From NCBI GenBank assembly GCA_021234155.1, contig JAJEKV010000002.1, positions 6,442,775 through 6,506,774 of the forward strand: a stretch of DNA of 64,000 nt, written 5' to 3'. Shown here one piece after another: positions 1 through 44,079 of the stretch. Positions within the stretch are counted from its first letter, which is position 1. Each line of letters starts with the position of its first letter. A model generated the notes under the pieces. The model made no database searches and was not told the DNA's origin. It saw nothing but the letters and a program-made list of their open reading frames with translations. This stretch comes from Isoetes taiwanensis (lineage: Eukaryota; Streptophyta; Lycopodiopsida; Isoetales; Isoetaceae). Position numbers and translations under genes: made by a program.

Positions 1-2090
1 GACCTGAGACATGGAAGATCTAGCTCAGATACCAGTTAGTAGGCTTAGTTAGCTTGAAATTCTAGCTAGGAATTAACCCTTGCTTGTTAGATGGATGATT
101 AGTCTCTCTATTTTATGTTCTAGATGAAATTGTGATGGATGTATCAGATATGAATCCTCTCTATCTGTTCCTCCTGTATTGTATGGGTAAAAAAGGGGTA
201 GAGACCTAAAGGCCATCTAGGATTAGATATGCACCTAGTTAGAACCCCTTAAATCCCATTAGATGCGCCTTGTGCACAAGAGCCCACCTGGCTGTGGATG
301 CTATATCGTGATTCAGCACCAGATAACGAGCACAATGGTGAAATGTGGGTGGAGTCTTGCCTAGCATGGCTACAAGACTCATACAGTGTGCTAGGCTTAT
401 AGTTGGTCCTCGCGTTTGGGGCCGGCTATGGGTCCGACACCTCCTGGGTCGCAGGAAACGTGCCTATATGGACATCCTGGGCTCGATGGGCACGCCTAGC
501 GGTCCATGGATTTTGGGGAGTTCAAGTCGGGTACGGCTGTGTGTGCACCTAGTGGGACGTATTCTCTAGCACACCCAGGGATCCATTATGTTCGGGGAGG
601 GGACACTTCTCTGACCTGCCTCATCGGACCGGGGAGATGTAACCCGAAGTAGTCTCATAGGGTTATTCCATGAGATTGTGTCTTCAGAAGGCTACAATCA
701 CGCAATAGCCTGTTTCAGCCTATCTGCAACATGTGCACAGGAGGGGCAGATGGAGTGGACTACCCTAGCCATTGTTCTATGCCAGTGAATGCTATGTTAT
801 AAATCTGTCTGCTGTTACCCGAAGGCCTTGCCTGTCAGTCGACCCCCATGAGTCTGAGCCCCGGGGTAGATCTCTTATTTATGGTGCGTTTCCTTTGTTA
901 TGTTGGTATTCTGTTGTTAGTTGTATTGATGATGATGGGCCACCCTTCGTGGTGGTATATTATTTATTAGTATTGTTGCCAGGTGCTAACATGTATATAC
1001 GCTTCCGCTATATACGATTCTCATAGAAGGCGTGGGACGAATGACACCTCCGTGTCCTTCACCCGGACACTTGGCCATCGCAATGGTCCGAGTCAGACGG
1101 AGGGCCTTTTCGTGGTGATGGATTCACCATGGGAGGGGAATTTCCCTTATTTATATGATGGGAGCATCGTATGGATTCGGGAAGCTTCACATGGTACAAG
1201 ACCCTTTTATAGTCCTCTATGCTCTCTTACCTTCCTTCCAATATTTCCTATCTTTTGCCTCAAGGCTGTTTTTTTTGCTAGTTAATAAGTATAGTGGTTT
1301 TGAGAATCCATTCCCTTAATTGTAATTATACTAACTAGGGATGGATCCAAACATTTTCTTTCATCATATGGGGAGGATGATTCTCCTGCTGTAACCGATG
1401 ATTGCATATTTAAAATGCCTACACCGTTCATCACTCTTGGCATAGAGGATGGCTTATTCCTCTTAATGGCCATAGACTAAGATGCTACATGCCTATATGC
1501 ATATTAATTAGATGAATGTCCTCTTTTCTTATTCTCTTAGGATTTGTCCATTTCTGTTTCACCGGAAGGTAGACCTTATTCTAAGTGGCACTTACATGTT
1601 GTGTCGTTGTTGACTACTTTGATGTGAGACGTCCTTTGCACTGCTCCATAACCTGATTTTTAAGTACCTACATCTCATCTTCCACTGGCAAGTGTCTCTA
1701 TATCCTTAAGGCTCTGACTACTACTAGGAGTAGTTAGTATCCCTCAAATTGTAGGTCCTCAATACTTTAAGCTTCCTTAGAGATGATTTAAGCAATCTGC
1801 TATTGTCCATGGGAATGCCTGAGAGATTACAAGAGATGATATTCCATGTGCCATTGTCCATGTTAATGCCAGATAGAATAGAACAATTGTCGTTGCACGA
1901 ATGCACCATTATTTATGTTAATGCAAGATGGAACAATGCAAAATTTAGTTTCTATTTGGAACACGCAACTGTCCAATGCTAATGTCATATAGAATAGACA
2001 AAATGTTGTTCCATGTACATGCCACTGTCCGTGCTAATACCAGATGGAATAGAACATAAGAAAACTCAAGAACATACATGCATGCCCACC
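1..2090. other. No recognised gene; GC-rich patch at about 250-900
   Basis: I see no coding exon that I can support. Open frames here are short and lack recognisable domains. Bases 250-900 and 1030-1140 are richer in G and C than the flanks. A 15-base word at 749-763 (GATGGAGTGGACTAC) recurs in reverse complement at 47012-47026 with weaker similarity around it, so part of this stretch may belong to a dispersed repeat family. The mirror copy is at 34650-36562. Confidence 0.4.
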
Positions 2091-2109
2091 TTAATAAGTA
2101 TAGATAAAA

Positions 2110-3147
2110 GAAGTTGTTCACACTTCAATGCCTCCAATCCTCACTTATCGTGGCCACAATGTTGAAGTGGTGTCCGCTTACAAATATTTGGTGGTGGAGT
2201 TCCTGTCGGCCATGAACTGGGACAATTCCATCCGGCTACGAGCCGCAGTAGGTTGGAAGGCACTCTATGCAATGCAGAACAATAGCCACAAGGCGGAGCT
2301 GTATGATTGGGCCCACCAATCGCACCTATTCAAGGTGCTAGTAGAACCTGTGCTTTTGTACGGGGTCGAGGTCTGGGGCCCAGTGATTTCCCTCACCACT
2401 TGGAACGACTTGGGGCAGGTGCAGAAAGCTTTCTTGGCACGAGCCCTGGGGGTGAAGTCTACAGTCCCATACCAGATACTGCTGCAGGAAACAGGCTTCT
2501 AGCCTCTTCAAAGAGGAGCCCTTGACAGACACATTGTCTACTTCTAGAAGATGGTCAGCATGGACGATACTCGTCTCCCTCACCTCGCTTACACTATGGC
2601 AATGGGGCCTCAACGCCTAAAAGCCTGCTAGCGGCAAAAGAGAGCTCAGTGGCTGGCCAGATGGAATGTGCAGGAGCACAGGTGCGTCCAAGTGCAAACG
2701 GAGGCAGATCATCGCCCGATCTCCTCGATACCTTGGACGATGCTTCCTCAGTAAGCTATGGGATGCCAGCACCCTTGAACAGGTCAAGACGGCACATTAT
2801 CAATGCCACATAAATCCCAGATTGGAGCAGGGCCCCCAATGCTACTTGAGCCAACATGAAAGAGCGCAGATCCATTGCCTCTACCCGCACAGGTGCACAC
2901 CATCTCCAAATCTAGATAAGGAGGTGGGTTGGGGAGCTGCGTCAGGAGAGGCTTTGTCAACGCTGTCAGGTTGGAGCTGTGGAAGACGAATGCCAGAGTT
3001 GCCCGGCATATGATGACATTTGGACACGCTATGCTGAGCTGGCCCCTACATGAGATGCTGAGCACGAGCTCGGTATGGAGGTTGGGCTCATGCATTCAAG
3101 AGACCATGGATCGCCGAGATCAGCTTGGCCCTCAGGCACTTATCTGA
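2110..3147 (+). pseudogene. Decayed LINE-type ORF2, C-terminal end of reverse transcriptase
   Basis: The stretch from 2128 reads as the C-terminal part of a non-LTR retrotransposon polymerase: a YLVVEF block (usual form YLGV.F), then a long helix region and the hallmark LVEPVLLYGVEVWG. The frame stops at 2502 and continues in other frames. Near 2929-3050 it encodes the terminal zinc-knuckle-like block RLCQRCQ, then VEDECQSCPAY, DIW.RYAEL, matching the C..C, EDE.H, CP.Y pattern found at the end of many non-LTR ORF2 proteins. The endonuclease and the catalytic YADD part are absent, so this is a 5'-truncated copy with several frameshifts and stops. It is not expected to be functional. The mirror copy is at 33560-34650. 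Confidence 0.8.
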
Positions 3148-3217
3148 TGCATGTACATATTTCTGTCTATATTTGTATTAGTTTTTGTATTTGTATAGTT
3201 TGACAGCAAGCCTATTC

Positions 3218-3281
3218 CTGTCACGGTTTTTCCCCCAAACAATCCTTTAGGGCGGGGAGCGGGTTTTTTAAACCGTGACAG
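3218..3281 (+). other. 12-bp stem-loop near the LINE 3' end
   Basis: CTGTCACGGTTT at 3218-3229 is the exact reverse complement of AAACCGTGACAG at 3270-3281, with a 40-base loop. It sits downstream of the LINE C-terminal coding block and just before the microsatellite tail, where non-LTR elements often have 3' UTR structures recognised by their own reverse transcriptase. That role is inference. It could instead be an independent short inverted repeat. Confidence 0.6.
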
Positions 3282-3345
3282 TAATACGCTTGTTGTGCCG
3301 CTTGTTGGGTCCCATAGGCCAATTGGTCTCCGTGGACGATAAAAA

Positions 3346-3475
3346 CTCTATTCTATTCTATTCTATTCTATTCTATTGGTCTCCGTGGACGATAAAAACT
3401 CAACTCTATTCTATTCTATTCTATTCTATTCTATTCTATTCTATTCTATTCTATTCTATTCTATTCCATTCTATT
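3346..3475 (+). repeat. ATTCT pentanucleotide microsatellite, two blocks
   Basis: TTCTA units run from about 3346 to 3376 and again from about 3405 to 3475. The blocks are separated by a repeat of a roughly 23-base flank (GGTCTCCGTGGACGATAAAA and following bases) that also precedes the first block. The array directly follows the LINE 3' region and probably began as its tandem tail. The mirror copy at about 33352-33508 keeps both blocks and the duplicated flank but with many interruptions. Confidence 0.9.
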
Positions 3476-3600
3476 AAAAAAAGATGTAATTGCATGACGG
3501 ATTCTATGCTCGCTCATGAGTTTTTTTTATATTTGATCGTTTGACCATTAATAAGTTTGTCTATCTAAAATTGATCTATACCAGTAAACTTGATGCAGTA

Positions 3601-3634
3601 AAAGGAAGGAAGGAAGGAAGGAAGGAAGGAAGGA
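3601..3634 (+). repeat. AAGG tetranucleotide microsatellite
   Basis: About eight uninterrupted AAGG units. The mirror copy is a CCTT array at 33174-33222, longer and with irregular units. Confidence 0.95.
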
Positions 3635-3882
3635 TATGATGCTTCTTAATCCACTTGCAGTGAAAGTTATATTTTTCTTAACAACGTGCATCTTTATCAT
3701 GCATATGAAAATGATGATTTGTTTGTCTGGATTGCAATTTCTACTGTAACGAGGCCTCAACATCACCTGAGTGATCAAAGCTATTACAACAAAAGAGTTC
3801 ATCGATCCAATTGCAGGAAAAATAGTTCCCTAATGAAATAATAGATACATAACCCAACTGCATGAAATTCCCAACTCTTGCC

Positions 3883-4204
3883 GGGTAAAAGCATGCTACG
3901 GTGTACCACTTTTGGAACCCTCAAAAGTACCTACACTGGGTAATTTTAAAACTGGTACTTTCTGTTTTTTCTTTCCATTAAAATCAATCGAAATTTTTTG
4001 AATTGAAGGTCAATAACATGTCAATCTATAGTATTAGAGGATAATAATACTATTAGAGACTAATATAAATGGATTAACTCTCAAACTTATTATTTATTGC
4101 AGCATTTATGCAAGTTCCCAGTACCCAGTGCTGGGTACTTTTCTGGGTAGTTTCGCACTCCCTAAAAAGTACTTTAGATGGTACACCCTAGCATGCTTTC
4201 ACCC
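3883..4204. mobile_element. MITE-like element, 322 bp, 26-bp terminal inverted repeats
   Basis: The left end begins GGGTAAAAGCATGCTACGG (continuing to 3908). The right end, read in reverse complement from 4204, begins GGGTGAAAGCATGCTAGGG, with two mismatches over 26 bases. Subterminal AGTAC-rich sequence is also partly mirrored. The four bases TGCC lie directly outside both ends (3879-3882 and 4205-4208), a possible target-site duplication. The interior is AT-rich with no coding capacity. The superfamily is uncertain: the ends do not match CACTA, and no TA or TTA target duplication is visible. A degraded mirror copy lies at about 32626-32932. Confidence 0.75.
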
Positions 4205-4208
4205 TGCC

Positions 4209-4620
4209 CTAATTTCCAATTTTGAAAAGGGATAAGTCAAAAGAAATAAAGAAACAAGCTTGGAAACTATGCAAATTATATGTACATTTCTTTCGTTCAA
4301 AACCTGTGCAGCTGGACCCCAGTTAATATCCAATATTTCATAACGCATCATTGTGCTAGATGTTGATAATGCAACAGATGCAACTATAACTAAGCCAATA
4401 TTTGAGTCACATCCTGCATAGAAACATCAGAGGAGCAGTTGTGGTCTTGATGAAAACCAAGAGACTCCTTAACAAGCTGGAACAAACAAACTTGAGTATG
4501 TCCCTTTCACCAACCATTTTGATACAGCTCATATTTTCCTTCGTGCTTAAGGCCCATATGAAGTTATTTATGTTTTCAACAACAATAATTACTTGCTCTT
4601 TCTTCAAATTCCTAATTAAG
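4209..4620. other. AT-rich spacer, nothing recognised
   Basis: I see no gene or repeat between the MITE and the LINE target-site duplication. Short open frames on both strands have no recognisable features. Confidence 0.5.
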
Positions 4621-4634
4621 TATTTTGACTTGTA
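4621..4634 (+). repeat. LINE target-site duplication, copy next to the LINE 3' end
   Basis: TATTTTGACTTGTA is identical to 6998-7011 and abuts the A-rich tail of the minus-strand LINE. Confidence 0.9.
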
Positions 4635-4764
4635 GTTTTTTATTTTTTATTTTGAAGGACTTGAGCCTTTATTATTTATAGAAAGTTACAAAGTACAATG
4701 GGGACTAAAAACTCAGTGGAGAGAATGTCCACCAGAGCAAAACCACCCCACTCAAATACAACAT

Positions 4765-6080
4765 CTAAACAATATGAAGAGCAAGCAAAAACTCATAAGT
4801 ATGAATCTGAAGATAGTGCTCCCAAATATGGCTCTTCACCTCATTAGCAATTGATGAGCACCTGAATGCTTTGACAATTCGTTGTTGGGCATCAAGAAGG
4901 ATCTGTGCATCTGAACAAGCAAGACCTTTGAATATGAGAACATTCCTTCTTTTCCAAATGGACCAAATGATCCATGCACAAGCCAAATGAAATGCCCTTT
5001 TTGCCAAATTATCCCAACTACTTGGATAGACTGCTAATAACACTGCTGGCTATTCAAATTGCAACGAAAGAGGCCTTGAAGCCACAACCAAGCATGTCTA
5101 ACATGTCTACACAGGAAGAAGCAATGCTCAATTGTCTCATCCCTCTGTGCACATAAGGAACAAAGTGCAGATACCTCTGGACGAAATTTGTGCACTAGAA
5201 TATTAACGCGCAGACAACGATGAATGACTTGCCACCATAAAACAGGTACTTTGGGATGGAGAAGTTTATCCCATACCCATTTCCATACTGCTTTCTGCCG
5301 ATCCCTAGGAACGACCAAAGGCCACTTGGACGAAGGAGGCAAGACGTCCGCATCAAGCAAGACCTTGTACATGGAATTCACCAACTTATCTGCTTTGACA
5401 CGCCCATGAACTACCCAAGGCTGGGGGTCATCCACTTGTGCTACTGGAGGAAGAATTGAAGACACCTTTTGCCAAATAGCTCGATCCCACCTTAAAAGGA
5501 GGAACTTAGCTCTAAACTCTTCCCATGTCAGCAACTGCCTTTGATTATTATACCAATCAGATATCAGACACACACCTGCTGATCTCCATCGACGCTGCGT
5601 CAATGGGTGGACTGAAGATACCAGAGGACCATCGTCCAATGGAATCCACCAACAACTTGCAGTAGTGCTAATGTGTGCAAGATGGTGAAAGTGAAACAGA
5701 GATTGTACAGTCTCCCACGCAACTAGCAATCCTCTAAGAAATGGGGACGCATTGGGATATGTGGTCAGTGGATAAAACAGAGTCCAGGGGAAAAGTGGCC
5801 TAAGAGATGGAGATCCAAAAGAGATGCACATTTGCAAAGACTGATAAACAAGACGGGAACCCGGGGACTCATCCACATTATTCAAAATTCTCCAAATAAA
5901 CTTAGAAATCATCACCTTGCTCTGCAAAAAAAAATTGATCATCCCAAGGCTGCCAAAATGCTTTGGCAACATGCACTTTTCCCAACTGACTTTGACAGCG
6001 GCACCCTCCTCTGTCCCCCCTCCCCGGATGAAAAATCCCCCGATTTTCAGCAACTTGTTGACGACCCCAATTGTTAGCAA
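4765..6080 (-). pseudogene. LINE ORF2 C-terminal part with zf-RVT domain
   Basis: The open frame 5034-6080 encodes about 348 residues. The N-terminal part has WEKCMLPKHFGSLGMINF and KVMISKFIWRIL, the conserved post-polymerase block of plant LINEs (W..C.PK..GGLG..N). The C-terminal part is a zf-RVT domain: WDKLLHPKVPVLWWQVIH, then ALCSLC, ETIEHCFFLC and HAWLW, so the C-x2-C and H-x4-C ligands are intact. A frameshift at about 5034-5043 leads into 4765-5043, which encodes the usual tail AWIIWSIWKRRNVLIFKG. No ATG-led autonomous protein is expected. zf-RVT domains in plant LINEs are thought to aid nucleic-acid binding. Confidence 0.88.
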
Positions 6081-6285
6081 AGGATTTCACGGCAGCTAGA
6101 GCATCAACAATCCAAGCCATTCCTTTCCTTCTTACAAATGCAGAAGATCAGGCTTGCTTGCATCCATCTTTAAACTCCTCATCCTTCAAGTACAAAGTAT
6201 TTAATTTGAAATAAGTCTTGGTCCTGCTATGCGCCCCATCCTGAGAACAAGAGAAAATCATGCGGATTGTGATCCTGAAATAGAG

Positions 6286-6957
6286 TCATCCAAGCATATT
6301 TTGGCGAGAGAAATTATGCAAATATGTAGCTGCCAATGCATTATAATATCCCCTGTCATGACGTGCATATGCTCTACCAGCTCCAAACCAGCCATTGCAC
6401 CAAGTGAAGGTTCCATCGCCATCCACCTCTACCAAACTACAGTCATGCATCAAGCACTGCCATTGTTCACGTTCAAAGCCTTGAATGATTTCTGATCCAC
6501 ACCAATCAACTTCCAACTCCACCATATTGAAGTCACCCACCAACAACCATGCAACATGAGCCTCCAGGCGAACTAGTTTGGATCTCAAAGCAGCCCAGAG
6601 TGCCCCTCTCTGATGAGGTCTATTGTGTGCATACACATTCATTAGTCCCCACTCTTGTCCCTTATCAAACCACTTGATAATGATCCAGCGACCAAATCTG
6701 TCAGCATGAGCGAATGTGACTGCTATATCATGCCTCCATGCTGTAAGGACCCCCACTTTTGCCGAGTCTGCAGCAGCCACCAAGACATTATATTTCCTAC
6801 CTACCACAGAAGCTACCTTTTGCACGTCCTCTTTTTTGCACGTGCTCTTGTAGACAATAGAAATCTGAATTCAACCTAGCAAGAGCCATGAAAATTCTGC
6901 TCCTTTTAATTGGAGAGGAAGCAACACCCCGAACATTCCAGGAAACCAGCTTCATAA
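6286..6957 (-). pseudogene. LINE ORF2 endonuclease domain (EEP/APE-like), frameshifted
   Basis: Starting from ATG at about 6957, the minus strand reads MKLVSWNVRGVAS and PIKRSRIFMALARL, the N-terminal signature of APE-like LINE endonucleases (metal-binding N in WNVRG). After a frame change around 6830 the frame down to 6286 contains VGVLTAWRHDI, GQEWGLMNVYAHN and WLLVGDFNMVE, the latter two being the conserved Y/N and GDFN active-site blocks. The domain stops after TFTWCNGW, before the C-terminal SDH catalytic block can be read clearly. In an intact element the domain nicks target DNA to prime reverse transcription. Confidence 0.85.
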
Positions 6958-6997
6958 TGCAAGGGGGTCTGGTGGCCGGTATTCCAAATCCATGGAA

Positions 6998-7011
6998 TAT
7001 TTTGACTTGTA
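6998..7011 (+). repeat. LINE target-site duplication, copy next to the LINE 5' end
   Basis: TATTTTGACTTGTA, identical to 4621-4634. Both copies are also present around the mirrored LINE, at 29922-29935 and 32216-32229, which shows that the insertion preceded whatever produced the inverted duplication. Confidence 0.9.
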
Positions 7012-7651
7012 ATATTTACTTACAGTTGTTGAAGAATATGGGTTGTTTGTCCTTTCGACGAGGGAGTAAGTTCAATTTTCGTCATGCCCTCTTTTATATT
7101 GAACTAGTAGATCTAACCATGTAATTTCCATCTTGGATTGTGATGTCAGCATTTTCAATCTCACATTTGATAGAGCTAATGTTGAGATATGTTTGGAATA
7201 GTCCAAGAAGGGGGCTCACATTGGTCTCCTGAATTCGAGTTGTACTTCTGCATCACACATCCTTTATAAAGTCTTCTCTAGCAATGCGTCCAGTGTAAGT
7301 AGCCTTTGTCAGGTGCAGACTTGAACCATTGTTTTTACATGATATGAGTGAAAGCTTACAAATGTAGGCTTATAGTTATTGTGTAATTCTGAAAATGTAA
7401 ATGGAGCCACTAGCTTTTTTTATTCTTATGACTAGGTTCCTAAGTTATTTGTCCTATGGTACAATCACAAGTGGATTGTTTTATTAAATTGATGCACGCC
7501 TTTTTGTATTCAAACAACTTGTGTCATTATCTGGGCGGCTTGAACTTACTATAGCACAGGTATCCTTGTTTGATATTCCAAGTTATTTGAAATAGTTTAT
7601 ATGAAATTTGCAATTTCTGTGGTAGATAAAAGTGAACGAGACCCATGAAAG
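7012..7651. other. AT-rich spacer, nothing recognised
   Basis: No gene, tRNA or repeat could be supported here. The mirror copy lies at about 29300-29921. Confidence 0.4.
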
Positions 7652-7825
7652 GAATTTGAGGTTGCTGAAAAGGCAGTTATTTATGAGGAGGAAGATACAG
7701 ATAAAGAGGTGGAAGATGTTATGGAGGAGGAAGATCAAGAAGATAGATGTTTATATAATGGGATCCATGTAAATGGTGGAAGGTTTCTAAACAAAATTAG
7801 TGATGAAAGTCATGAAGGCATTTAG
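7652..7825 (+). other. Acidic coding-like fragment, unrecognised
   Basis: One frame, opening just after a stop, encodes about 57 residues rich in Glu and Asp: YEEEDTDKEVEDVMEEEDQE, followed by GIHVNGGRFLNKI, and ends at a TAG at 7823-7825. There is no start codon in frame, so it would have to be an internal or terminal exon. Much of the same wording survives in the mirror copy near 29100-29290. Low-complexity acidic stretches can arise by chance from GA-rich DNA, so this may not be a gene. Confidence 0.25.
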
Positions 7826-7958
7826 GCGTAGGTAAGAGCTAGTGTTGATGTTCTCCTTTTCCCCTCATGAGTGGTTGTTACGCATTCTATTTCTACAGAT
7901 ATTTGAGCATGGGATCACATATCAGGTATCCCTACCAAAACACAGGATTTTATGTTGA

Positions 7959-8372
7959 TCAGAGGGCCAATCTGCTTCTGGTATAGTCTTTATCAAAAAG
8001 CAAGGATGTATTTGCTCTGTGTTGTTATACCATTGGGCTTGCTATAAATACCATGTTTGGAGGGCATATCTCAACAGTGAGATACCAGAGCCTGAGTTCT
8101 TTGGCATTGCAGTTGACAAAATCAGGAAGTCTTTTCATGAGATGTTCTTGCTCTGGCGCAATGGCACAAAAGGACACTTTTTCATAATAGTTCAGGTCTT
8201 GTTCTTCAAGTGGATGTACCTAGAAATTGTTGTAGCTATTGCTAATTGTGTATTTCATATGTTGCAGGAAGCTACTCGTTTGGCAGTCATAATACTTTAC
8301 TTCATCATGGAGGTGCTGGAATACCCTCAACTTTGGATATCCAAAAATGCAATTACCTTACAAATCTATTAG
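7959..8372 (+). other. Coding-like open stretch, unrecognised
   Basis: An uninterrupted frame of about 137 codons includes LYHWACYKYHVWRAYLN, then SEIPEPEFFGIAVDKIRKSF. No in-frame ATG precedes this part. The downstream half (FFIIVQVLFFKWMYLEIVVA) reads like AT-rich intron sequence, so the real exon, if there is one, may end near 8170. It could belong with the acidic fragment just upstream on the same strand. The mirror copy at about 28600-28970 still reads LYHWAYYKY and DKMGSLFMRC on the minus strand. I do not recognise the family. Confidence 0.25.
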
Positions 8373-8736
8373 TCCATGTTGTACATATGCATAGATAATG
8401 GCTATCCACAATACTACACCTAAGGTTTGAGACCTTTGGAACACAACTTTGGTATCAACCAAACATCTACGGTTTCCATATAGGTTAACAATCATACTTC
8501 CTAAAATAATATCAGTATCTGAATTTATACATGTATGTGCATATAGCAACTTACCCATTATTAGACATGCCACAGTGCGCTAAACTCTAATAATTGCTAG
8601 GTTGATCTAGTTCTTAGAAAACATGTTTCACATATGCCCCCTCCTCCACCCGTCCAAAATTAACATCCACCCTTACCTCAAGCCTGCTTACTGCTAGTTA
8701 TAATATATGTTGTGTTCTTTTCTTGAATAATAGATA

Positions 8737-9174
8737 CACTTCCTTCTGTGCAATATGTGCCCGGCGTCATATATATTGCTGCAACTCCTACCTTTTGACA
8801 CATTTTCCACCTCCTCAACTTCATGATGTATGATCCCGTTATCATGTCTCTAATAGGTTCTAGAAAATAATGCTCAGAGCTTATATTTAGATCGTTTGAA
8901 GTGCTCAAATGTGAAAACCGTTTCAATATTGAAGGATTCTATAAAGCCAGGCCCATATAGATAGAAAGTGATGACTGTAAAAAAAAATGCTAAATGATAG
9001 CACGTGAATGATGATTTACCATGTCCTTGTGATGTCCATCCGAATGTAGCGAGACATCCAAATGTAGCAACTTTCGTCTCTGTATGCTTCCTTCTGTGAA
9101 ATATGTGCATGACAACATATATATTGTTGCAAGTCCTACCTTTTAACACATTTTTCACCACCTCAAGTTCATGG
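8737..9174 (+). repeat. Direct repeat pair, about 91 bp each
   Basis: Bases 8737-8827 and 9084-9174 match at roughly 80 percent by eye. Shared words include CTTCCTTCTGTG, ATATATATTG and TCCTACCTTTT. The two copies are about 347 bases apart. No coding capacity or element ends were seen. Confidence 0.7.
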
Positions 9175-9503
9175 TCACCTAACGCTCATATCCCTAATTA
9201 GATGTGTGCCTAATTTTCATGACAATCCATCATATTAAGTTTTAGAATTTCTTATTTTGGATCAAGTAAATTTTTGAGCAAAGTAATCAAAAGTGCTTTA
9301 AATTAGTTCCTTTTTTTTTTTTTTTTTTTTGGTTTGTTGGGGGTGGGGTGGGGGTTTGCATGTACGCAAGGGGGCAACTAAACCGAGACATTGTAACTTG
9401 TAACTGTAACGTGCTTTCATTCTCAAAAAAATCTATATGTTGTATTGGTCAACTAAAGATTTTATTGGATGAATCCACCTTAGTTAGCCTTCAATACAAA
9501 AAA

Positions 9504-9739
9504 GAATCCACCTTAGTTTGGCCAATATATGTTAACATTTCTAATGTTTAAATCACATGGGAGTGGCTTTGGTTTTCTTTTGCACATGGATTTAACGGAA
9601 GATATATGAATGCAAGATGCTAGGCCACTTTAGTCTATTGCATGAATCCACCTTCGTTTAGCCACTATATACTAGCATTTCTAGTATCTAAATCACAAAG
9701 CTTTGGATTCAACGGAAGATACAAATTTATAAGATGCTT
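9504..9739 (+). repeat. Direct repeat pair just downstream of the malectin-like gene
   Basis: Copy A at about 9504-9621 and copy B at about 9645-9739 share GAATCCACCTT, AGCCA/GGCCA with TATAT, ACGGAAGATA and AAGATGCT in the same order. Copy B is shorter by an internal gap. A further partial copy of the first block starts at about 9472. Confidence 0.65.
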
Positions 9740-9754
9740 ATTTTAAGCGTAAAC

Positions 9755-11213
9755 TCAAAGTCCAAACAAAAAGTACAATATGGTACAAATTATGAGAAGC
9801 ATATGGAGGTTGGTAATGAAGTTCAATAAAGTTGATGAGGTTCCAGATGAAGTGGATGACGTTGGTGGAGGAGGCGAAGGCGAAGATACTGATGGTGGAG
9901 AAGGCGAAGATACTGATGGTGGAGAAGGCGAAGGCGAAGATACTGATGGTGGTTCTAATGAGGAAGGGGATTGGGCCGGGGATGGCGATGGAGATGGAGA
10001 ACTTGATGGTGATTGTGTGAAATTATAATATCCCACTTCATAAACTTCAATTGCATTAAGGAGGGGTGGCATGGTGGAATTGGACGAAGAAGAGAGACTA
10101 AGTTCTAGCTTGAACTTGCTGGGCAGATTTTCCACTCGGATGATATGGCTCATAGGCTCGGAATTAAGGGTTAAAGTAACATTGGTCCCATCTACAACTT
10201 CATCATCTACTTTGATTGACACTTGGAAAATACAAGTGTCATTTTTTTGTCTATCTCTAAAGTCCCAGAAGAAAAGATTGAAGTAGAGTTTCGTAGTGCT
10301 CAAGTCAACGAAAGTATATACCATGGGATCTAGTTCTGCTGACAAAAACACTTCGGCTGGGGGGGCATCTTGCAGCGAAATTTTTGGAACTGTCTTGGTT
10401 GTGTTAATCCCATTCACAAAAGAAGGCTCCCAAATTCTATCATAGGGGTCTTGGGGATACCTGCACAAAATGGAACTTGTTCAACACATATAAAGAGGTC
10501 ATTTTCCTTAATCTTTGCAACATTACATGTAGTGCATACCTTAGAGATGAATTTTCCCCAAGATTCGCACGCCAAATTAAGTGGAAGGGTTCATTTCCAG
10601 GTTTGAAGTAGTATGACCCATTTGGAAGAAGTCTAGATTCGAGGGCAGAGATGAAGGGCACGTTATCACCATCTGAGCTGCTGAGACAAAATTTTAGTTG
10701 CTTTTGGCTTGGAGTCCAGATGGATTCCCATTGATAATACATTTCTCTGCCCACTGGCCTCCATGCCTTTCCATCCACATAAGTATAAAAGACTGGCCAA
10801 ACGGATCTGCTATCATAATTGCCATAGAAATATGTAGAGCGCAGAAGATATTTTTGATTTGGAGTGACAGGCAAGAGGTAACAGTTGCTGGTGCTTGTGG
10901 TATTAGGAAAGTATCTCAATGTCTTGAGAATTGTGGGATCGTCGGCGCTTAATCCTTGCGAAACATTGGCGTTTAATCCAGCCGAAACATAACCTTGGTC
11001 TGAAACCCAGGTAATATTATCTTCTGAATAGCCCTGTGTTGCACCGCAGTCGATGCTGGTGAATCCTGTAAAAAAGAAGACGATTTAGAGGGATGATTCA
11101 GTTTCAGAATTGCAAATGTTTGAAAGAAAAATGGAAAAGGGTGTACCCTGCTGTGCTGCAGCGGCAAGGACAAAATAAAGCAGGAAGAGAGAGGTCCTCC
11201 ATAGAATTGGCAT
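9755..11213 (-). CDS. Malectin-like domain protein with Pro/Ser stalk, probably GPI-anchored
   Basis: Three exons read on the minus strand: 11147-11213, 10540-11065 and 9755-10460, with GT-AG introns of 81 and 79 bases. The joined frame is 432 residues, from ATG at 11213 to TGA at 9755-9757. Residues 1-22 form a signal peptide (LFLLYFVLAAAA). Residues about 24-345 form a malectin-like domain: FTSIDCG, RYFPNTT, NCYLLP, YLLRSTYFYGNYD, PFISALESRLLPNGSY, RYPQDPYDRIW spanning the second splice junction, and PPLLNAIEVYEV. Residues 348-408 are an SPSP-rich, arabinogalactan-like stalk with PPSVSSPSP repeated. Residues about 410-432 are a hydrophobic tail after small residues, the layout of a GPI signal. 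There is no kinase and no leucine-rich repeat, unlike most plant malectin-like receptors, so it would act as an extracellular, membrane-tethered carbohydrate- or peptide-binding partner (inference). The stop, splice sites and start all agree, so it is probably functional. Confidence 0.9.
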
Positions 11214-11250
11214 CCTCCAGACGATAAGAATTGCTCCGTCTTCGCAAACA

Positions 11251-11276
11251 GAGCGTTTAAATAAAAATGGACGTCA
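11251..11276 (-). promoter_or_regulatory. Possible core promoter of the malectin-like gene
   Basis: On the minus strand, TATTTAAA lies about 45-55 bases upstream of the ATG, and the palindrome GACGTC (bZIP-type ACGT core) lies just upstream of it. A TATA box here would imply a very short 5' leader, so transcription may instead start elsewhere. This is judged from position and motif only. Confidence 0.35.
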
Positions 11277-11426
11277 AAAAAGCAAATGGGGCTGGGTTCA
11301 CATGCACCTTCATGACCCTCACCATCACGTAAAAGGGCTCACCATTTTACGTCCACCATGGCCCACCATCGCCAATTTGCACTGGGCAAAACAGGCCCCC
11401 TCTCCGGCGATGGTTGCATGTAGGCA

Positions 11427-11452
11427 GACGTCAACGTCAACGTCAACGTCAC
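11427..11452 (-). promoter_or_regulatory. Tandem TTGAC/TGACG (W-box, as-1 type) array
   Basis: The minus strand reads four TGACG cores and three TTGAC cores in a perfect six-base periodicity (TTGACG units) about 214-239 bases upstream of the malectin-like ATG. TTGAC is the core bound by WRKY factors and TGACG that of TGA-type bZIP factors. Arrays of both are typical of defence and salicylate-responsive plant promoters. Binding is inferred from motif and position. The mirror copy near 25540-25575 keeps only scattered TGACG cores. Confidence 0.55.
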
Positions 11453-11464
11453 ACCGTCTAAAGG

Positions 11465-11613
11465 ACGCCATTGGAAATTCCAAAGTAGAAACGAAGTCCT
11501 CAGCGCGTGAATTTATTATACACTTGCATCTGATACTATCTTTGTGGACCAAAGGAGGCCACTGAAAATTCCAACGTCAAAGTCCTCAATACACTTGCAT
11601 CTGATATTTACTA
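11465..11613 (+). repeat. Imperfect direct repeat in the upstream region of the malectin-like gene
   Basis: About 11465-11535 and 11558-11613 share GAAATTCCAA/GAAAATTCCAA, AAGTCCTCA and ACACTTGCATCTGATA in the same order. The first copy carries an extra stretch of roughly 15 bases. Each copy also lies close to ACGTC/CGTCAA words, so this may be a promoter-module duplication. Confidence 0.6.
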
Positions 11614-22080: not shown

Positions 22081-22089
22081 TGTATAAAC

Positions 22090-25000
22090 ATCTTTGGGAA
22101 GTCTGAGCCAACAAACATAACAACTCAAAGACACAAGAATTATATACAACGCTTGGGGACTAAGGACAATAAAGAAAAACATCATGAACATCAAGAGCAA
22201 AGAACATAAACTGAAACAAACCATCATAAACAAACTCAGACAATGGCAGGCTCACCAGCCTACATGCCCCAAGCAGATAACGCCACTTACATTCCAAGCC
22301 CTCAGAAGGAGTGGTGGGTGAACTCCCGCCGAGCAAGATACCTCACCACTGGCACCGAGGGACCTCTTACCATGGAGTTCATTAAGAGCGATCGGATGAG
22401 TAATCCTCGCTGTGATAGAATCCACGCGTCACGTATAATAAGAACCACGTGAGAATCACGTAGCGAACATGAGCATGTCGAGCAAATCCTAGCTTTAATC
22501 GGAAGTCCCACTCGGAGGTTCCAAGTACATAACAAATACTAAGACAACAATGAAAGACCATGACATATATTAGAGAATTTACAATAAATGCCTAGGTCAT
22601 ACTCTTTAGTCAGTTGTCGAGGTTGCCCACAACCTAACCATGCCGGGTTATAGCTAGATCGATGATGAAACTATAATGATAACTCAAACGTTGATGTAGC
22701 ATGCTGCTCAAACCACCTCAGGTTCGAAGCGCTCTGGGATCTACCCATAACATCAAGCGTATTTAAGCTTCCTCGGCGTATGGTTTCAAGTATTAATATT
22801 AAAATCCTAATTTCATAGCTAAACAATTATGATTAAGACTCCAGAAGCTTAACTTACATACTCTTTCCGCTTTAAAATCCATGGGTCCTCGATCAGAATC
22901 AGATATAACTCCTCCGCCAACTCCATCTCTAGGCACCTTTAACCAACAGTAATAAGAATGACCAATTTTCAAGAGTTCTAGACTTCTATTAGTCTTAAAT
23001 TACATGTTATTCCTTATTACGCAAATTGCATAAATAAGTTTCATATTATTTTCGTCCTTCGTTTTACCTAAGCTTGCCTTTTACTTACTCCTGCGATGGC
23101 TCCTCGCTAGATCCTTAACACCTTATAATTTCATGTTCCCTTTCTATCTTATGTATCTTAAAATAACATTTGGTTAAAGTGTACAAATAATTATTTAATT
23201 CCAAATATAAACAATAAAGCAAGATCAAACTAAAATGACAAGAACGTAAAAATACAAGAACAAGTAAAGGAGGGAGACATGTTTCCGCCTCTGACTCGAT
23301 TTTGCATCGTATTCCACCATCTAGCTAAGGACCTGACAACCCAATAGATCTGGCTTCAGGCCCAAATCGGCCCTCATTGAGCTGATTTGTATACATTTTG
23401 GGATGCTTGGTCGCCTTGTTTTCATTCTCTCAGAATATTTGCTTAAGCCGCACTTTTAATTCTACCAAACAAAGATCTGAGAGCACAATTTCAGCCCTTT
23501 TATGCTGCTGCAGCCCACTTCCAAGAGCGCCCCAGGTCGGGATTGATGTTGCTTCCACTGTACGCCTTTGGGTTCCATCCACAATCAATTTGTCTTTTAC
23601 TCCTTCTAAACTGCTACAGATACTTTAATTTGACTCATCTCAAATTTCAGCATGCCATTTTAACTCTTTGTTTCAAACCCCGCTCTACACCGATCCAATC
23701 TAGACTCCATATCCAGTTTGCTGGGACAAAGATCCTCCTAAATCCGCCCCCGTGAAGGCTCATCCCGGACAACACAACCACTGTGGTTTTTCCAATCATC
23801 CTTGCTTACTAGACTATGATGCTATAATCCTTCAGCAAACATATAATTTTCTATTCCAGCCCATGTGCCTCGCTAAACTGCTAACAAAACCCCACCTCGA
23901 GCAGAGAAATCGATGCTTCTAATCTTCAAGCCCGCATCCTCCAAAAGCACTGCCTCTACTCCACGCTTCCAAAAGCTTCAAATTCTTCAATTTGCCTCTC
24001 AATTTATAGAGTTTATACTTATTTTAGTTCTCAGATGTATACTCGAGTTTTGGTATGCATACTGCAACATGTATATAATGCATGAGCACATATACTGCCC
24101 ATCAAGCTGCCAGGACCAAGCATACAAGATAATGCGATCAAAAAAGAGAAAACTCATTTCTAGCCCGCATTTATAGATGACGCATATTCACCATTTCATG
24201 GGGATTCCCCTATCCATTTTGTAAGTCATCACATGACAAAATTTAGTCAAGCTTACGACGGGCTTAATTTCATCCAGCTCAAAACCTGAATCGACTATCA
24301 CCTGATGCACCTGGGAAAAAACAAGGAGAGGGGAGGTGAGGGGAGCGGGGAGAGGGGTAATGAAAGGCATCCATCGCTGGTGATAAAATAGTGGTAGCCA
24401 TTAGAAATGGAGATCCTAAATTCAAAGCCCAAAACTCCAATCGTAATTTCATTTGATGTGGAGAAAAGGGAAGAAATCTGGAGAGTAGTAAAAGAACATC
24501 CATCAGCGACATCCTAGTGGTAGCTTTCATCAATACGATTCCTACCTAGCTCTTAAAACCAGATCATTATCGATGGTGAACAAAAAAAGGACCTAACGAG
24601 AAATATGTGGAACTGGCGTTTCCACTATGTTCCATTCATCCGCTGCACAAACACACGGCATGGGTTCAACTCCCGATGTTTTCCAAATTATTTGTTAAAC
24701 GATACATCGGCTATTCATAGTAAATTCTAAACTAAAGCGAAGCGAAGGATTAATGTACAATGGAAGCGAGGCAACCCAACGAAGGCCCAAAACAAAAGAA
24801 ATGGTCCAAAGTCAGTTCAATTGAGAATTTTTCACCATGGGACAATACAGTATCGCATCATTAGTAACTTCATAATAGACCCGCATTCAGTTTCACGTCA
24901 CTCTTGGTATCACATTGTTTAAGGGAATAGATTTTAGGATTTAAATGTTCTTAGTTTGCTTTCACAGAATTGATTAATATGACTAACCGCGAATCTCGTC

Positions 25001-25759
25001 GAGGAACTTTTATTTTTATAATGCCCTTCATAATACTCTGAATTTCCACCATACACTGCTTCCATTAAAGAGAATGTCGCTGCAAGGCTCCGGTCACGCA
25101 TAAATCTCTTTGTAGGGCTGTAAATGTCTGCTTAATTTATTTCGGTGCCTTCTGTTTATGCTATATCATATACTCTTGTAATCATCCTTTTATGATATCT
25201 CAATTCTATGTAACCATAGTCAACGCGCTAGGTGAACGGAAGTTCAAACCTGGAGTAGATGGCGTTTCTACTTCGATATGAGTAGGTTGAATTTATTTTT
25301 GAAAGTCCGACAAAATCGTGGTCACTCAGTACGCAGCTTCGCATCAAATAAAATTAATTAACTGAAATATTCAATACCCGCAGTAAACATCGCATGCAAG
25401 CAAGTATTGAGGACTTTGATGCTGGAATTCAGCGTATCTATCCAATACACAAAGATGTTAATGCATGCAAGCGCATAATAAAATTCACGCCGTGAGCCGA
25501 AAGACTTGCCGACTTTAATTATGCGTCTTTAAGATCGCGGATGCCAGACGCTGACGTGCTGACGCTTGTTACGCAACCATTATCGCAGAGGGAATTGCTT
25601 GCCCAATAAAGATGAAGCGCAGGACGGAAGTGGTTCTTTCACGATGCAGGAGGGTCAGTGATGCGCATGAACCCAAAATTCTACTTGCTTTTTTGATCTA
25701 TTGTTATTTCTATTTAAACGCCCGCCAGCGTACATCTGAGCACCCTTATCGCCCCGAGG
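22090..25759. other. Right-arm mirror of about 11.2-15.0 kb
   Basis: No gene is recognised. It includes the mirror of the three-copy tandem repeat at about 24180-24640. There, words such as GGTAGC and ATGGGTTCAACTCC mark the same order reversed. The upstream region of the mirrored malectin-like gene follows, with its TTGAC array eroded. Confidence 0.5.
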
Positions 25760-27213
25760 ATGCCAATTCTATATGACTTCTTCCTCAGCTTATTTTAGTC
25801 CCCCTGCCGGCCAGCAGCTATCGTTATATACAATTCCATTTTTCTCTTTCAAACATTTGCACTCAAAACCGAATCCCTCTAAATCGCTTTTATAGACTAC
25901 CAAAGATCACGCTGCAGCAACACAGTATTATCTTTCGTAAGATACATAGTTCTCGCACTGTTATACTAGCCTGATTAAACGCATGCACGTTTCGCATGAT
26001 TGCTTTTTCAGACGCATCCCACAATTCCCTACATTACTGAGATACTTTCCCAATACCTTACAAGTAATTAGAATCAAGTTACTCTCTCAATATTCGCCAC
26101 TCAAATTGGGTAAATATTTCTCTTTCAAGGGTAGCATATATTTCTCTTTCGTAAGTAAATTAGTGATAGCAGCATCTGCTTAACAATTTTATACTTATGG
26201 ATGGAGGCATGAAAGCAAGCAGAGAAATGTATTATCAATGGAACTATCTGGATCATAAGCCAAGAGCAACTAAAATTTTGTCTCAAGAAATTGTATTTAA
26301 AGATAACGCTCCTCTTCATCTCTACCGTAATCGGGATTCTTCTAAAATGGTCATACTCGTAACCCGGAATGAACCTTTTCCATCTCTAATTGAAGGGCGA
26401 ATCTTAGTAGCAAATTCACAAATTTATTCTATGTATGCAATTACATGTAATGCCGGTAAAGATTAAGGAAAATGACTAACAAGTTCCATTTTGTGCGTAA
26501 CTTAAGACTTTGATGATAGAATTTGAGCTCTTTCTTTTCAGTGAATGGGATTACCACAACCAAGACAGCTCCAAAATTTCGGCCAAGACGCTCCCCCACC
26601 GGTTGTTTTTGAGCCAAAATATAATCCAGATCCCATGGTATATACTTCGTTGATCTCCGAGCACTTAAACTTCACTTCCAATCTTTTTCTTCGACCTTTA
26701 GAGATAGTATTTAGAAAAAAATGACACTTCTGTGGCTTCCATGTCAATCAAAGCAGATGATGGAAGTTGTAGATGGGACCAACAAGTCATTTTTAACCTC
26801 TACTCCAGCCTACATTTTGTATCATCCTGAAAGGGAAATTCCGCCTACAAGTTCAAGCTAGAACTAGTCTCTTCTTTCTTCTATCCACCCAATTCATGCC
26901 ACCCTCCTAATGCAATTAGAAGTTTATGAAGGGGATATTGCACTTCGTACACAATCACTACTGTTTCTCTATCTCTATCGCCATCCCTACCAATCCCTTC
27001 CTCTCATTAGAACCAACGCTATCAAGATCTTCATTTCTTTTCTCAGCTTCCATCCATGATCTTCGCTTTCCATCAAGATCTTCGCCTCTCCAGCACTAAC
27101 GTCATCCATCTATCTGGAACTCCTCATCAACTTTTATTGAACTTCATTACTAAACCTCCATATGCTTCTCTCAATTTGAAATTATATTGCAATTCTTTTG
27201 TTTGATCTCGAGC
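25760..27213 (+). pseudogene. Degraded mirror copy of the malectin-like gene
   Basis: The start ATG at 25760 pairs with 11213, and the end near 27213 pairs with 9755. Recognisable pieces include the block around REMYYQW at about 26218, the intron-2 region at about 26440-26520 and the NGINTTKT-like stretch near 26550. Numerous indels destroy the signal peptide, the malectin-like domain and the stalk frame; for instance the stalk region at 26940-27080 no longer encodes SPSP. If the arm is a read artefact this is not a real second gene. Confidence 0.8.
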
Positions 27214-29921
27214 TACGCTAAAATAAGCATCTTAAATTTGTATCTTCTTCCAAGTTGAATCCAAGCTTGCGATTTAGATACTTGAAATGTTGCATATAGG
27301 AAGTATAAATGAAGGTGGATCTATGCACAGACTAAAGTGGGCTTCCTAGCATCTAGATCGAGTATCTTCCAGTTAACTATAAAGAAATCCAGCTACCTCT
27401 ATGATTTGTTTCATTGTAACAAGCACATATACTACTAAACTAAGGTGGATTCTTTTTGTATTGAGTATTACTAAGGTGATTCTATCCCATTAAAATCTTT
27501 AGCTGGGACTAACATAAATATATAGATTTAGAATGAAAGCACGTTGGCATATAAGCATAATGTTCCTGGTTTTCCTCTAGTTGCCCCCAGTACATGCAAA
27601 ACCCCACCCCAACAAACCAAAAAAAAGGAACTAATTAAAGTTACCTCTTGGATTACTTTAAGTTTCAAAAATTTGCATTGATCCAAAAATAAGAAATTTA
27701 AAAACTTAATATGATGGATTATCATGAAAATTAGGCACACATCTAATTAGGATAAGGATGTTAGGTGACCATGAACTTGAGGTGGTGAAAATGTTAAAAG
27801 GTAGACTTGGCAACACAGCTATAGCATTTACATATTTCACAGGAAGGAAGCATACGTACATCTAAAGTTGCTACATTTGGATGTTCCTACATTCGATGGA
27901 CATCAGTATGAGATGGGTAAATATCATTCACGCAGTTATCATTTTAGCATTTTTTTGTTACATCACTTTCTATCTATAATGGTCTGGTTTTATAGAATCC
28001 TTTCCAATATTGAAACTAAGCCACATTTGAGCACTTCAAGATTCTCCAGAAAATATAAGCTCAGCATTATTTTCAGAACCTATTAGAGACATGTGATAAC
28101 GGGATCATAAGCATCATGAAGTTGAGGAGGTGGGAAAATAGTTGTAAGGGAGGTTGGTAAAGAATATATATGACGTTTCTGCACATATTGCATGCATGAA
28201 GTGTATCTATTATTCAAGAAAAGAAATACAACATATTATAACTAGAAGCAGCAGTTGTGCTGAGGGGTAGGATGTTAATCTTTTGGATCGTGAGGAGGGG
28301 TATGGAAAACATTTTCTAAGAACTAGATCAACCTATGCGCAATTATTAGAGCCAGCTTAATCGTGGCTGCCCAGAATGGTAAGTTGCTATATGCACATAC
28401 ATGCATAAATTCGTGACAATCGAGCATTATTTAGGTGCTTTTAAGGATTGTTAACCTATAGGGAAACTGTAGATGTTTCTGGTTGATACCAAAGTTAAAG
28501 TTCCAAAGGTCTCAAACCTTAGGTGTAGTATCGTGGGATTACACATCTAAGTATAAATATAGATCATGAATAGATTTGGTAATTGGGGATTTTGATATCT
28601 GTTGAGGTATTCCAGCACTTCCATGATGTAGAAGGAAGTATTATGACTGCCAAATGAGAAGCCCTTCGCAACATATGAAATACACAATTAGCAATAGCTA
28701 CAAATACCCTCTAGGTATTACTCCAATTTGAAGAACAAGACCTGAACTATTATGGTGAAAGTAACGAAATATATGTTTTGCAGTGAACATCTCATGAAAA
28801 GACTTCCCATTTTGTCAATCGTAATGTTAAGAACTCGTGCTCGTATCTCATCATGAGATATGTCTCCAAAGAGGTATTTATAGTAAGCCCAATGGTATAA
28901 CAACACAGTATAAAATAAGACCTGCTTTGGATTAAAGACTATACCGTATAGCCAATTCTCCGACAACATATAAAATCCGTATTTTGGTAGGGATACCCAT
29001 ATGTGATCCCATGCTCAAATAATGACATTCAGAGAAATAGTGAATGCGAATAAAATCCACTGCTGTGAGGGGAAAAGGAGAATATCAACACTAGCTCTTA
29101 CTCTAATGCTTTAAATGCCTTCTGCGACTTTCATCACTAATTCTTTATTTAGAAACCTTCCAATTAGCTTACATGATCCCATTGCAACATCTATCTTCTT
29201 GATCTTCCTCCTCCATAACATCTTCCACCTTCATTCAGATTCTCATAAATAACTCCATTTCTTTCAAAGCAACCTCCTCAAATTCCTTCTCATGGTCTCG
29301 TTCCACTTTATCTAAATTAGAAATTTATATAAACTATTTCAAATAACTTGAATATCAAACAAGGATACCTGTGCTTATAGTAAGTTCAAGCTGCCCAGAT
29401 AATGACATTAATGCTGTTTTGAATACAAAAGGCGTGCATCAATTTAATAAAAACAACGACGGTGATTGCAAATTTATAGGGATAAATAACTAGGAACCTA
29501 GTCATAAGAATAAAAAGCTATGGCTCCATTACATTTCAGAATTACACAACAACTATGCTGCCTGCTACATTTGTAAGCTTTCACCTGCTATCATGTAAAA
29601 CAATGTTCAAGTCTTCCGTAATTCCGACAAAGGCTACTTACACTGGACGCACAAGAAGACTTTATACAGGATGTATTTAAGAAGGCACAACTCGAATTCA
29701 GGAGACCACGTGGTTCTTCTGGACTATTCCAACATATCTCAACATTAGCTCTATCAAATGTGAGATTGAAAATGCCGACATCACAAATCCAAGTTACGGA
29801 AACAGGCGGTTAGATCTTACTAGTTCAATATGGTGTTATGCGCTGAGATAATGAAAATTGAACTTTACTCCCCCTCGCTTTATCAAACAACCCATATTCC
29901 TTCAACAACCGTAAGCAACAT
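27214..29921. other. Right-arm mirror of about 7.0-9.75 kb
   Basis: It contains mirrored versions of the direct repeats and of the two coding-like fragments (near 28600-28970 and 29100-29290, minus strand). No independent gene is seen. Confidence 0.5.
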
Positions 29922-29935
29922 TACAAGTCAAAATA

Positions 29936-33508: not shown

Positions 33509-33559
33509 TCTCCGCCCACGACACCACCTCACCTATGGGACCCAAATAAGCGTATTAAA

Positions 33560-34650
33560 TAAGTTGATATCGGCCATGGTTTGAAAACCTACCTCTAAAG
33601 GATTGTTTCAGAAAACCGCGGATTTAAAATAAAATACGTCTATAAGAAATACAAACTATCATTGAGCAGATGAAGCGCATATACTCATAGTACCGAGGCT
33701 AAAGCGATCTCTCGCCATCCATGGTCTCTGAATGCAGAGCCTAACTCTCCATAATGAAGCCAGTCAAGATCTCATGTAGGGCCAGCCTTCCAAGATAGCT
33801 GCGTCCAAATGTCATCAGCAGCAACTCGGTATTCGTTTCTGGCACGCCAACTCATTAAATAAGGACAAAGCTCTTCCGGACGCTAGGGCCTCTCAACTCC
33901 ACCTCCTTGCTCAGGATTTCCAGAGATTGCGGCACTCCGCGCTGCGAGATGCGCGCTTTGATCTCATTTTCATGTTGGCTCAAGCAGCATTGTACCGCCC
34001 AATCAGATTTATGTAGCACATTGATAATGTGCCGCTCCTGACTGCCTGGCGGGCGTGCCGGCAATCCCGAGAAGCGCATCGGTAGCATTACAGCATCACC
34101 GGGAGATCAGCGATGATCTACCATTAATTGGACGCACCTCCGTTCTCGCATTATTCTCCATCCGCCACGCATCAGCTTCGCAGCCAGGTGCTAGAGGCCC
34201 TGGCTGCCATAGCAGGAGGAGACGAGTATCGCCCATGGCCAGCATACGTAACTGGCTTAAGGGCTCTTCTTTTTGAAGAGGCTAGAAGATGTTTCTCGCG
34301 AAGAGATCGTAGGATCGCAGATCTCTACCCCTGGCTCGTGCTGCTTCGCCGCACTCTAAGCTGCTCATGGTGAGGGAACATCGCCTCTAAAATTCTTCTA
34401 ACACCCCGCATTGCCAAAGCTAATGGTAAGTTCTACTACACCTTGACAGGTGCTGATAGGCCTATACAGCCCACTTTGGTTATGATTCTTTAAGATTATG
34501 TATAGAGTGCTTCAACCTCCATCGCGTTCGTAGAGTCGCGATGAATTGTCCTGTACCATAATACAGAACTCACCACCAATATTGCATGGATCACTTCAAA
34601 TACTGGTGGCTTACTTGTTATGAGATTGAGGCATTGAAGTGAACAACTTT
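33560..34650 (-). pseudogene. Degraded mirror copy of the 2.1-3.1 kb LINE end
   Basis: Base 34649 pairs with 2111 through AGTGAACAACTT. Blocks at 33760-34090 mirror the C-terminal zinc-knuckle region. No polymerase motif can be read across more than a few residues. Confidence 0.7.
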
Positions 34651-36562
34651 ATCTATACCTTTATTAATAAAGGCGCATGCATGTTCCGAGTTTTCATGTT
34701 CTATTCCATCCGGCATTAGCACTATTTGGGCATGCATACGAAACAACATTTGTTCACTTATGATTATCAGTATTGACAAATTATGCAGTTCCAAATGAGA
34801 AACTTAAATTTCCTATACTGTTCCATCTTGCATTAACATAAATAATGCGCATTCAGCAAATCTAATAATTGTTCTATCAACTCAGTATTAACATGCGGAC
34901 AATGGCAATACGGAATATCATCTCTTGTGCACTGTGCATTCCTATGAATAGTCAGCAGCATTGCTTTCAAATCATCTCTAAGGAAGCTTAAAGTACTGAG
35001 ACCTACAATTTGGAGTGGGGACAATAACTACTCCTAGTAGTAGTCGCATTCTAAGGATGAAGCAGAGACACCTGCCAGAGATGAGATTATGGCAATTAAA
35101 ATCAGGCTATGGAGCAGCGGTAAAGGACGCTCGGCCATCAAAAGAGTCAACAACGCATTACACACAAGTGCCACTTAGAATACCTTACCTTCCAAGTAAA
35201 CAGAATACGTATCCTAAGAGAATAAGAAAAGAGGACATCATTTCATCAATACGCATTACAGGTTACGTAGCATCTTGTGCTCTATACGCCAAGAGGAATA
35301 AGCCATCCCCTTCAGGCCAGAGTGATGAACTTGCAGGCATTTTATAACAAACGATGAGAATTAACTGATAGATGAAATATTGACTTGGTTCATAATGAAG
35401 AAGGATTCTCAACCACTATACCATGAATGAATATTGAGACTATAATTGACGAATGTTCTATCATATGAAGAATTTATGACCCATCACTTCCATCATCGAT
35501 CACATGATGGCCATGTCCGTGAAGGACACGGATGTGTTGGCTCCGTCTCTACGCCGCATATGAGAATCGAGCATAAAGTGAAGCTGCATACACAAGCAGT
35601 TAACTCCGCAACACATTGAAGAATATATCACAATTTCACGGCGAAGGCTTCCATCATCAATAATACAATCAACAAACAGTAATACCAACATAACAAAGGA
35701 AACGACTATAACAAGAGATCACCCGGCTTCCACTCATGGGTGGGCTTCATCGACAGCAGTATTTTGGCAATGTACAGCATTGATTGAATATAAAAGCATT
35801 CATCAGCATAACAATGGCTAGTAGGAAGTCCACTCTATCTCACATGTGAGAAGGAACAGGCGATGCGGATTAGGTTTCTTCAAGACACACAATCTCCGCT
35901 GACACCCGCGAGACTACTTCTGGTTACATCTCCCTAGTCCGATGAGGCAGCCGTGAGAAGTGTCCTCCTCTCAACAATGGATCTCAGGAAGTGAGGTCAC
36001 GCCCCACTAGGTGCAATACACTGCATTCGACTTGAATCCCTGTAAACCATGGACTGCCAGGCGCAGCTTTCCATCGGTTTCCGTGATGTCCAGAGTAGTA
36101 CGCTTCGGCTTAATTCCAGAGGGTAAGTTCTGACCATAGCCGGCCCCAAACGCCAGACCAACGAGAGTCTAGCATCAGAGAGTTCTAGCCACGTTTAGGT
36201 AAGACTCAAATTCCCCCATTTCCACCATTAAAGCTCGCGACCGGCATTGAATAATATTTGTTATAGCATCCACAGCCTGTGTAGCTTTGTGCACAAGCAA
36301 GATCTAATGGGATTTCATGGGGTCTCTAACTAGGCATATCTAATCCTAGATGGCCTTTGGTGGGTTCCTACCCCTTACTCCATACAATACAAAGAGGCAG
36401 AATGATAGAGAGGATTCATATCCGGATACATCCATCACACTTCATCTAGAACATGTGCTGAGAGACTAATCATCCATCTAATGTTGCTAATTCTAGGCTA
36501 GAATTTCAAGCCAATCCGCTTTTCCACTAACCGTATCCAGCTAGATCTTCCATGTCTGTGTC
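34651..36562. other. Right-arm mirror of bases 1-2110
   Basis: GATCTTCCATGTCTG at 36544-36558 pairs with the first 20 bases of the window, fixing the last visible pair of the inverted duplication. No gene is recognised. Confidence 0.7.
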
Positions 36563-44056: not shown

Positions 44057-44079
44057 ATCTTATCTTATCTTATCTTTAT
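44057..44079 (+). repeat. CTTAT pentanucleotide run
   Basis: About four units of TCTTA, ending in TTTATT. Confidence 0.85.

Follow-up and report, generated by a model that had tools for sequence, protein, structure and literature searches.

The 64,000-nt window analyzed here (C1018:6,442,775-6,506,774, from the 1.66 Gb Isoetes taiwanensis genome assembled in 1,110 contigs) is folded back on itself, which raises the question whether this fold belongs to the genome or to the way in which the genome was read. The first-pass annotation had described a giant inverted duplication without visible spacer, in which positions 1 to 18,490 recur as reverse complement up to 36,562 and the match continues off the window. 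In a self-alignment of the window, we indeed obtained a long antidiagonal, with coordinate sums that rise from 36,564 close to the left edge of the window to 36,967 where the arms meet; its main block has an E-value of 0.0, which excludes chance as the source of the mirror. The self-alignment crosses the diagonal at 18,483|18,484, such that the two halves abut directly and the spacer is absent, as had been stated. When 30 kb of upstream contig were added (negative coordinates denote positions upstream of the window), a single alignment of 30,404 columns and 74.4% identity joined -27,986..1,079 to 63,968..35,506. Arm A (+ strand) begins some 28 kb before the window, near -27,986, and ends at 18,483; its noisy reverse complement, arm B (- strand), occupies 18,484 to 63,968. 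The match thus leaves the window on the left as anticipated, and the span originally assigned to it holds as far as it goes, but a right end at 36,562 is too short. Likewise, the caution that features of the second arm, placed between 18.5 and 36.6 kb, are not independent of those in the first was justified, yet it applies to the whole of 18,484-63,968.

Arm B comprises 45,485 bases versus 46,470 for arm A and is thus 2% shorter. It ends 32 bases (63,969-64,000) before a run of 12,491 Ns at window coordinates 64,001-76,491, which presumably represents an assembly gap. With +1/-1 scoring, the main blocks of arms A and B are 71-74% identical, a point absent from the first-pass annotation. The features for which that annotation had proposed a mirror order were a gene, two LINEs, a MITE, a tandem repeat and two microsatellites; mirrored counterparts were confirmed for one LINE-type ORF (zf-RVT), a malectin-like gene, a 132-bp MITE-like repeat and two microsatellites.

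Age of the repeats and gene pieces shared by the arms

Given collinear arms that carry repeats and a gene in mirror order, at about 74% identity, our initial reading was an ancient inverted segmental duplication, with ordinary mutation having driven the arms about 25% apart. A genuine copy of that age would require the repeats common to both arms to predate the split. The 132-bp MITE-like repeat of arm A (11,290-11,421, + strand) is young: it is 99% identical over 129 bases to a copy at C1018:15.18 Mb, 96-98% identical to four further fetched copies and 90-99% identical to many of the genome matches listed. Its mirror resides in arm B within 25,540-25,714 (- strand) and is 61% identical to the arm A copy; it escaped detection when the repeat by itself served as BLAST query, and the alignment of the mirror scores 15, as compared with a mean of -20 and a maximum of -4 in 500 shuffles.

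A similar picture emerged for a high-copy repeat. A 2-kb slice of arm A (L004:2000-4000), for which the first look at the genome gave 7,163 candidates, is 86-91% identical to all other genome places that were scored (39 of 39). Its arm B counterpart (52,100-54,100, offset by about 0.1 kb) is 72% identical to arm A and 69-72% identical in its other long matches, with short pieces elsewhere reaching up to 77%. Many of these places are common to both arms, among them C89:109 kb (91% to arm A, 69% to arm B) and C1100:7.5 Mb (90% and 70%, respectively). With tens to thousands of candidates per genome search, of which no more than about 40 were scored, all copy numbers are lower bounds.

Repeats within one arm behave in the same manner. 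Arm A contains a pair of direct repeats between -12,822 and -10,908, with copies of about 800 bases that are about 300 bases apart and 95.1% alike, whereas the two mirrored copies in arm B (47,258-48,022 and 48,316-49,111, thus spanning 47,258-49,111) are only 64.4% alike, as expected if each copy had picked up its own errors. The TCTAT microsatellite of arm A (3,405-3,475; 96% matches) has a degraded GAATA mirror at 33,368-33,458 in arm B (77% matches), and the perfect AAGG microsatellite of arm A (3,602-3,634; 100% matches) a degraded TCCT mirror at 33,174-33,220 (91% matches). The MITE-like repeat, the high-copy slice and the direct-repeat pair are too young in arm A to match the age needed for a divergence of 25%, hence they do not support a duplication in the genome.

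The malectin-like gene pieces of arm A are two overlapping open frames (9,755-11,084, - strand) identified by the Pfam domain Malectin_like. Their mirror in arm B (25,973-27,204, + strand) is broken, with 41 and 29 frame-shifting indels relative to the two arm A frames. Two further loci, on contigs C1045 and C916, match both arms at this gene, arm A better than arm B, and differ from the two arm A frames by 2 and 4 (C1045) or 5 and 21 (C916) frame-shifting indels. Mismatches by codon position were 30/50/38 and 26/37/36 for arm B, and nearly flat also for C1045 (20/20/20 and 8/11/11) and C916 (21/19/22 and 25/29/26); since no comparison yielded a clear third-position excess, the codon-position test does not discriminate. 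More telling were the identity values: an exon of the arm A gene is 89% identical to C1045, while the gene region is 70% identical to arm B. Together with the 90-99% identity of the MITE-like repeat to its genome copies, this led us to drop the initial reading as an ancient duplication. The LINE-type ORF piece of arm A (5,034-6,086, - strand), recognized by its zf-RVT domain match and open frame, has its mirror at 30,802-31,810 (+ strand), with 71% identity and 85 gap openings in 1,114 columns. As a separate observation on the gene, the malectin-like exon copy at C916:1730282-1731058 is the one with 21 frame-shifting indels relative to the arm A frame; it is either another uncorrected stretch or a pseudogene.

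Profile of the arm-to-arm differences

The two main blocks of the BLAST output, which cover -27,986..1,079 and 1,411..18,363 of arm A (46 kb), served for counting substitutions and indels, leaving aside the 331 bases between the blocks, the last 120 bases before the fold and smaller BLAST rows. In these blocks, 42,833 aligned base pairs contained 7,307 substitutions with a transition/transversion ratio of 0.97. Relative to arm A, arm B has undergone 3,007 indel events, namely 1,400 insertions and 1,607 deletions, of which 1,700 are single-base events (849 insertions, 851 deletions); the longest indel measures 17 bases. Directed hypermutation of one arm, RIP-like or otherwise, was considered and set aside in view of this spectrum, as transversions are about as frequent as transitions and indels of 1-2 bases are plentiful.

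Mutation of double-stranded DNA is expected to produce symmetric rates for complementary substitutions, which need not apply to base-calling of a single strand. In arm A orientation, A>G changes affected 1,200 of 12,411 positions (9.7%) and T>C changes 459 of 12,445 (3.7%; p = 2e-79), with the same sign in five of five blocks. The pairs G>A/C>T, C>A/G>T and C>G/G>C were strand-asymmetric as well (p values of 1e-5 or less), while the asymmetry was weak or absent for A>C versus T>G (p = 0.046) and A>T versus T>A (p = 0.17). Between the main blocks, 331 bases of arm A (1,080-1,410) face only 161 bases in arm B. Under scoring that favors long gaps, this shortfall was split over several gaps of at most 30 bases, in an alignment that is itself uncertain here; the interval resembles a patch in which bases were missed more than a single clean insertion. 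Arms of 45 kb that had truly drifted apart by a quarter should show some large insertion, because the genome is rich in repeats, as judged from the number of first-look candidates for the single slice mentioned above. Homopolymer and CpG profiles agree on the whole with noise, arm B having fewer runs of five or more and higher CpG; these profiles vary too strongly by region to carry the argument by themselves, however, and such runs are likewise scarce in parts of arm A from -26 to -8 kb.

Judging from the assembled sequence, we take the arm-to-arm differences to be base-calling errors. The absence of indels above 17 bases in the main blocks, the even balance of transitions and transversions and the strand asymmetry of substitutions, along with shared insertions that are younger than the arm-to-arm divergence, are not what ordinary mutation of a genuine duplicate would leave behind, and they reduce the old segmental duplication, despite its collinear arms, to a barely conceivable explanation. 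The claim of a genomic duplication, as put forward in the first-pass annotation, could thus not be upheld: the differences between the arms behave as base-calling error, the repeats they share are too young, and arm B, devoid of an assembled flank, halts at the N run.

Noise step, fold and origin of the mirror

The identity between arms A and B steps down from 77.9% to 64.2% at 15,055 (15,012-15,099 within 2 log-likelihood units). This step lies inside arm A and has no apparent evolutionary reading, which further argues against an ancient duplication. Compared with five genome copies, a repeat that spans 15,055 shows 86-87% identity ahead of the step and 71-77% behind it, corresponding to a drop of 10.8 to 15.0 points, and gap openings within it rise from 2.2-2.5 to 5.6-6.3 per 100 columns. 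As a control, these five copies were compared with one another across the step; their ten pairwise identities changed by -7.4 to +0.6 points, meaning that the repeat itself accounts for some of the drop but not for the bulk of it. Another repeat is located at the fold. Its arm A portion (18,000-18,408) shares 79-80% identity with six copies that are themselves 91-98% alike; for arm B, identity to these six copies amounts to 67-69%, using an arm B query (18,379-18,790) that opens with about 105 bases of arm A. On the grounds of the identity step and the fold-repeat identities, we count 15,055-18,483 (+ strand) as uncorrected as well, and of better quality than arm B; it would represent the first pass of a read. 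The preceding part of arm A (1-15,054, + strand), which continues upstream to about -27,986, appears to be corrected and reliable, as its sampled repeats are 86-99% identical to other genome copies. All three stop-to-stop frames of at least 200 aa in the window fall within 1-15,054.

Taken together, the mirror very probably stems from one uncorrected fold-back long read that was used to extend a contig end or to fill part of a scaffold gap. According to this scenario, the first strand of one molecule would have been read, followed by the complementary strand in the same long read, and the uncorrected product would then have been placed at the contig end or in part of the scaffold gap. Such a course of events would account for the observed series of reliable sequence up to about 15,055, noisy arm A up to 18,483, a spacerless reversal, a re-reading back to about -27,986 and finally the N run. 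A single read was probably responsible, and the fold may have been made during library preparation or by re-capture of the strand; we favor such an artefact over a real fold. The platform was probably nanopore sequencing, with the caveat that a mismatch rate of about 16% is high even for old nanopore reads and counts against this assignment. The errors of PacBio CLR reads, for comparison, are mostly insertions. For this reason, and because Heinz, Meyerson and Li 2026 (PMC12870357) saw no systemic fold-backs in three PacBio samples, PacBio CLR seems the less likely source.

In that report, fold-back reads account for about 0.55-0.6% of genomic reads from nanopores. The window resembles the artefact described there (PMC12870357) in that the second segment maps back onto the place of the first in opposite orientation, the halves being directly joined, and differs from it in having been carried into an assembled scaffold. 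Counting against our interpretation, eight putative artefact reads from a direct-cDNA run showed an undisturbed raw signal (PMC12870357). The greater noise of the second pass fits the second-arm base-calling loss reported for nanopores: according to Spealman, Burrell and Gresham 2020 (PMC7229812), base-calling of inverted duplicates is poor in the second arm, which misses bases and comes out slightly shorter than the first. Here, too, accuracy falls past the junction, as evident from the fold repeat, and the arm of lower quality falls slightly short of the preceding one in length, with a patch of missing bases opposite arm A 1,080-1,410. Artificial palindromes in reads have also been described after whole-genome amplification (BMC Genomics 2018, PMC6218980); the likeness lies in the false palindromic long reads.

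The junctions analyzed by Spealman et al. (PMC7229812) included validated real inverted duplications of yeast, whereas the present fold is probably not a real one. A different scenario would be a real, spacerless inverted duplication with near-identical arms of at least 45 kb that breaks the assembly and defeats base-calling, thereby leaving a noisy arm beside a gap. Quality loss of this kind is what those authors describe for real inverted duplicates (PMC7229812), and noise by itself does not separate a real fold from an artefact fold. What makes a real palindrome improbable in our view is that an identical copy present at normal depth should have been corrected by other reads, but arm B is noisy over its whole 45 kb and ends at the N run. 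Moreover, a spacerless fold with nothing beyond the second arm is a shape reported for artefact reads (PMC12870357). We therefore adhere to the uncorrected fold-back read as the preferred explanation.

Consequences and the far side of the gap

About three quarters of the window (15,055-64,000) are unfit for annotation, since genes and repeats in this part are uncorrected. From 18,484 onward, the letters are a garbled second reading of the left side, and any duplicates, pseudogenes, repeat ages or palindromes inferred from them are false. The features encountered here could serve as a screen of other assemblies that does not require reads: strand-asymmetric substitutions, exclusively tiny indels, young repeats that appear old in one arm, and a noise step beside a gap.

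A search for another long fold-back in the 57.5 kb past the N run was negative, which counts against our interpretation; the longest self-inverted stretch there measures 1.2 kb (121,169-122,355, 71% identity). On the other side, upstream of the fold-back, a self-inverted stretch of 1.5 kb with 91% identity is located at -33,114 to -31,588. Between 87,566 and 97,761, we noted a tandem repeat with units of about 3.4 kb in roughly three copies that are 78% alike and differ by many small indels; it could be real or another noisy stretch. Past the N run, a 2.5-kb sample is 68-69% identical to four copies that are mutually 90-94% alike, so that the right side of the gap is noisy there as well. Where the stretch from 76,492 to about 83,000 was sampled, A>G changes are in excess over T>C (74 versus 29), with a strand sense opposite to that of arm B. 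Judging by weak signs, the noise past the N run perhaps extends to about 83 kb, and raw noise on both sides of the gap suggests that the gap was partially filled with raw reads.
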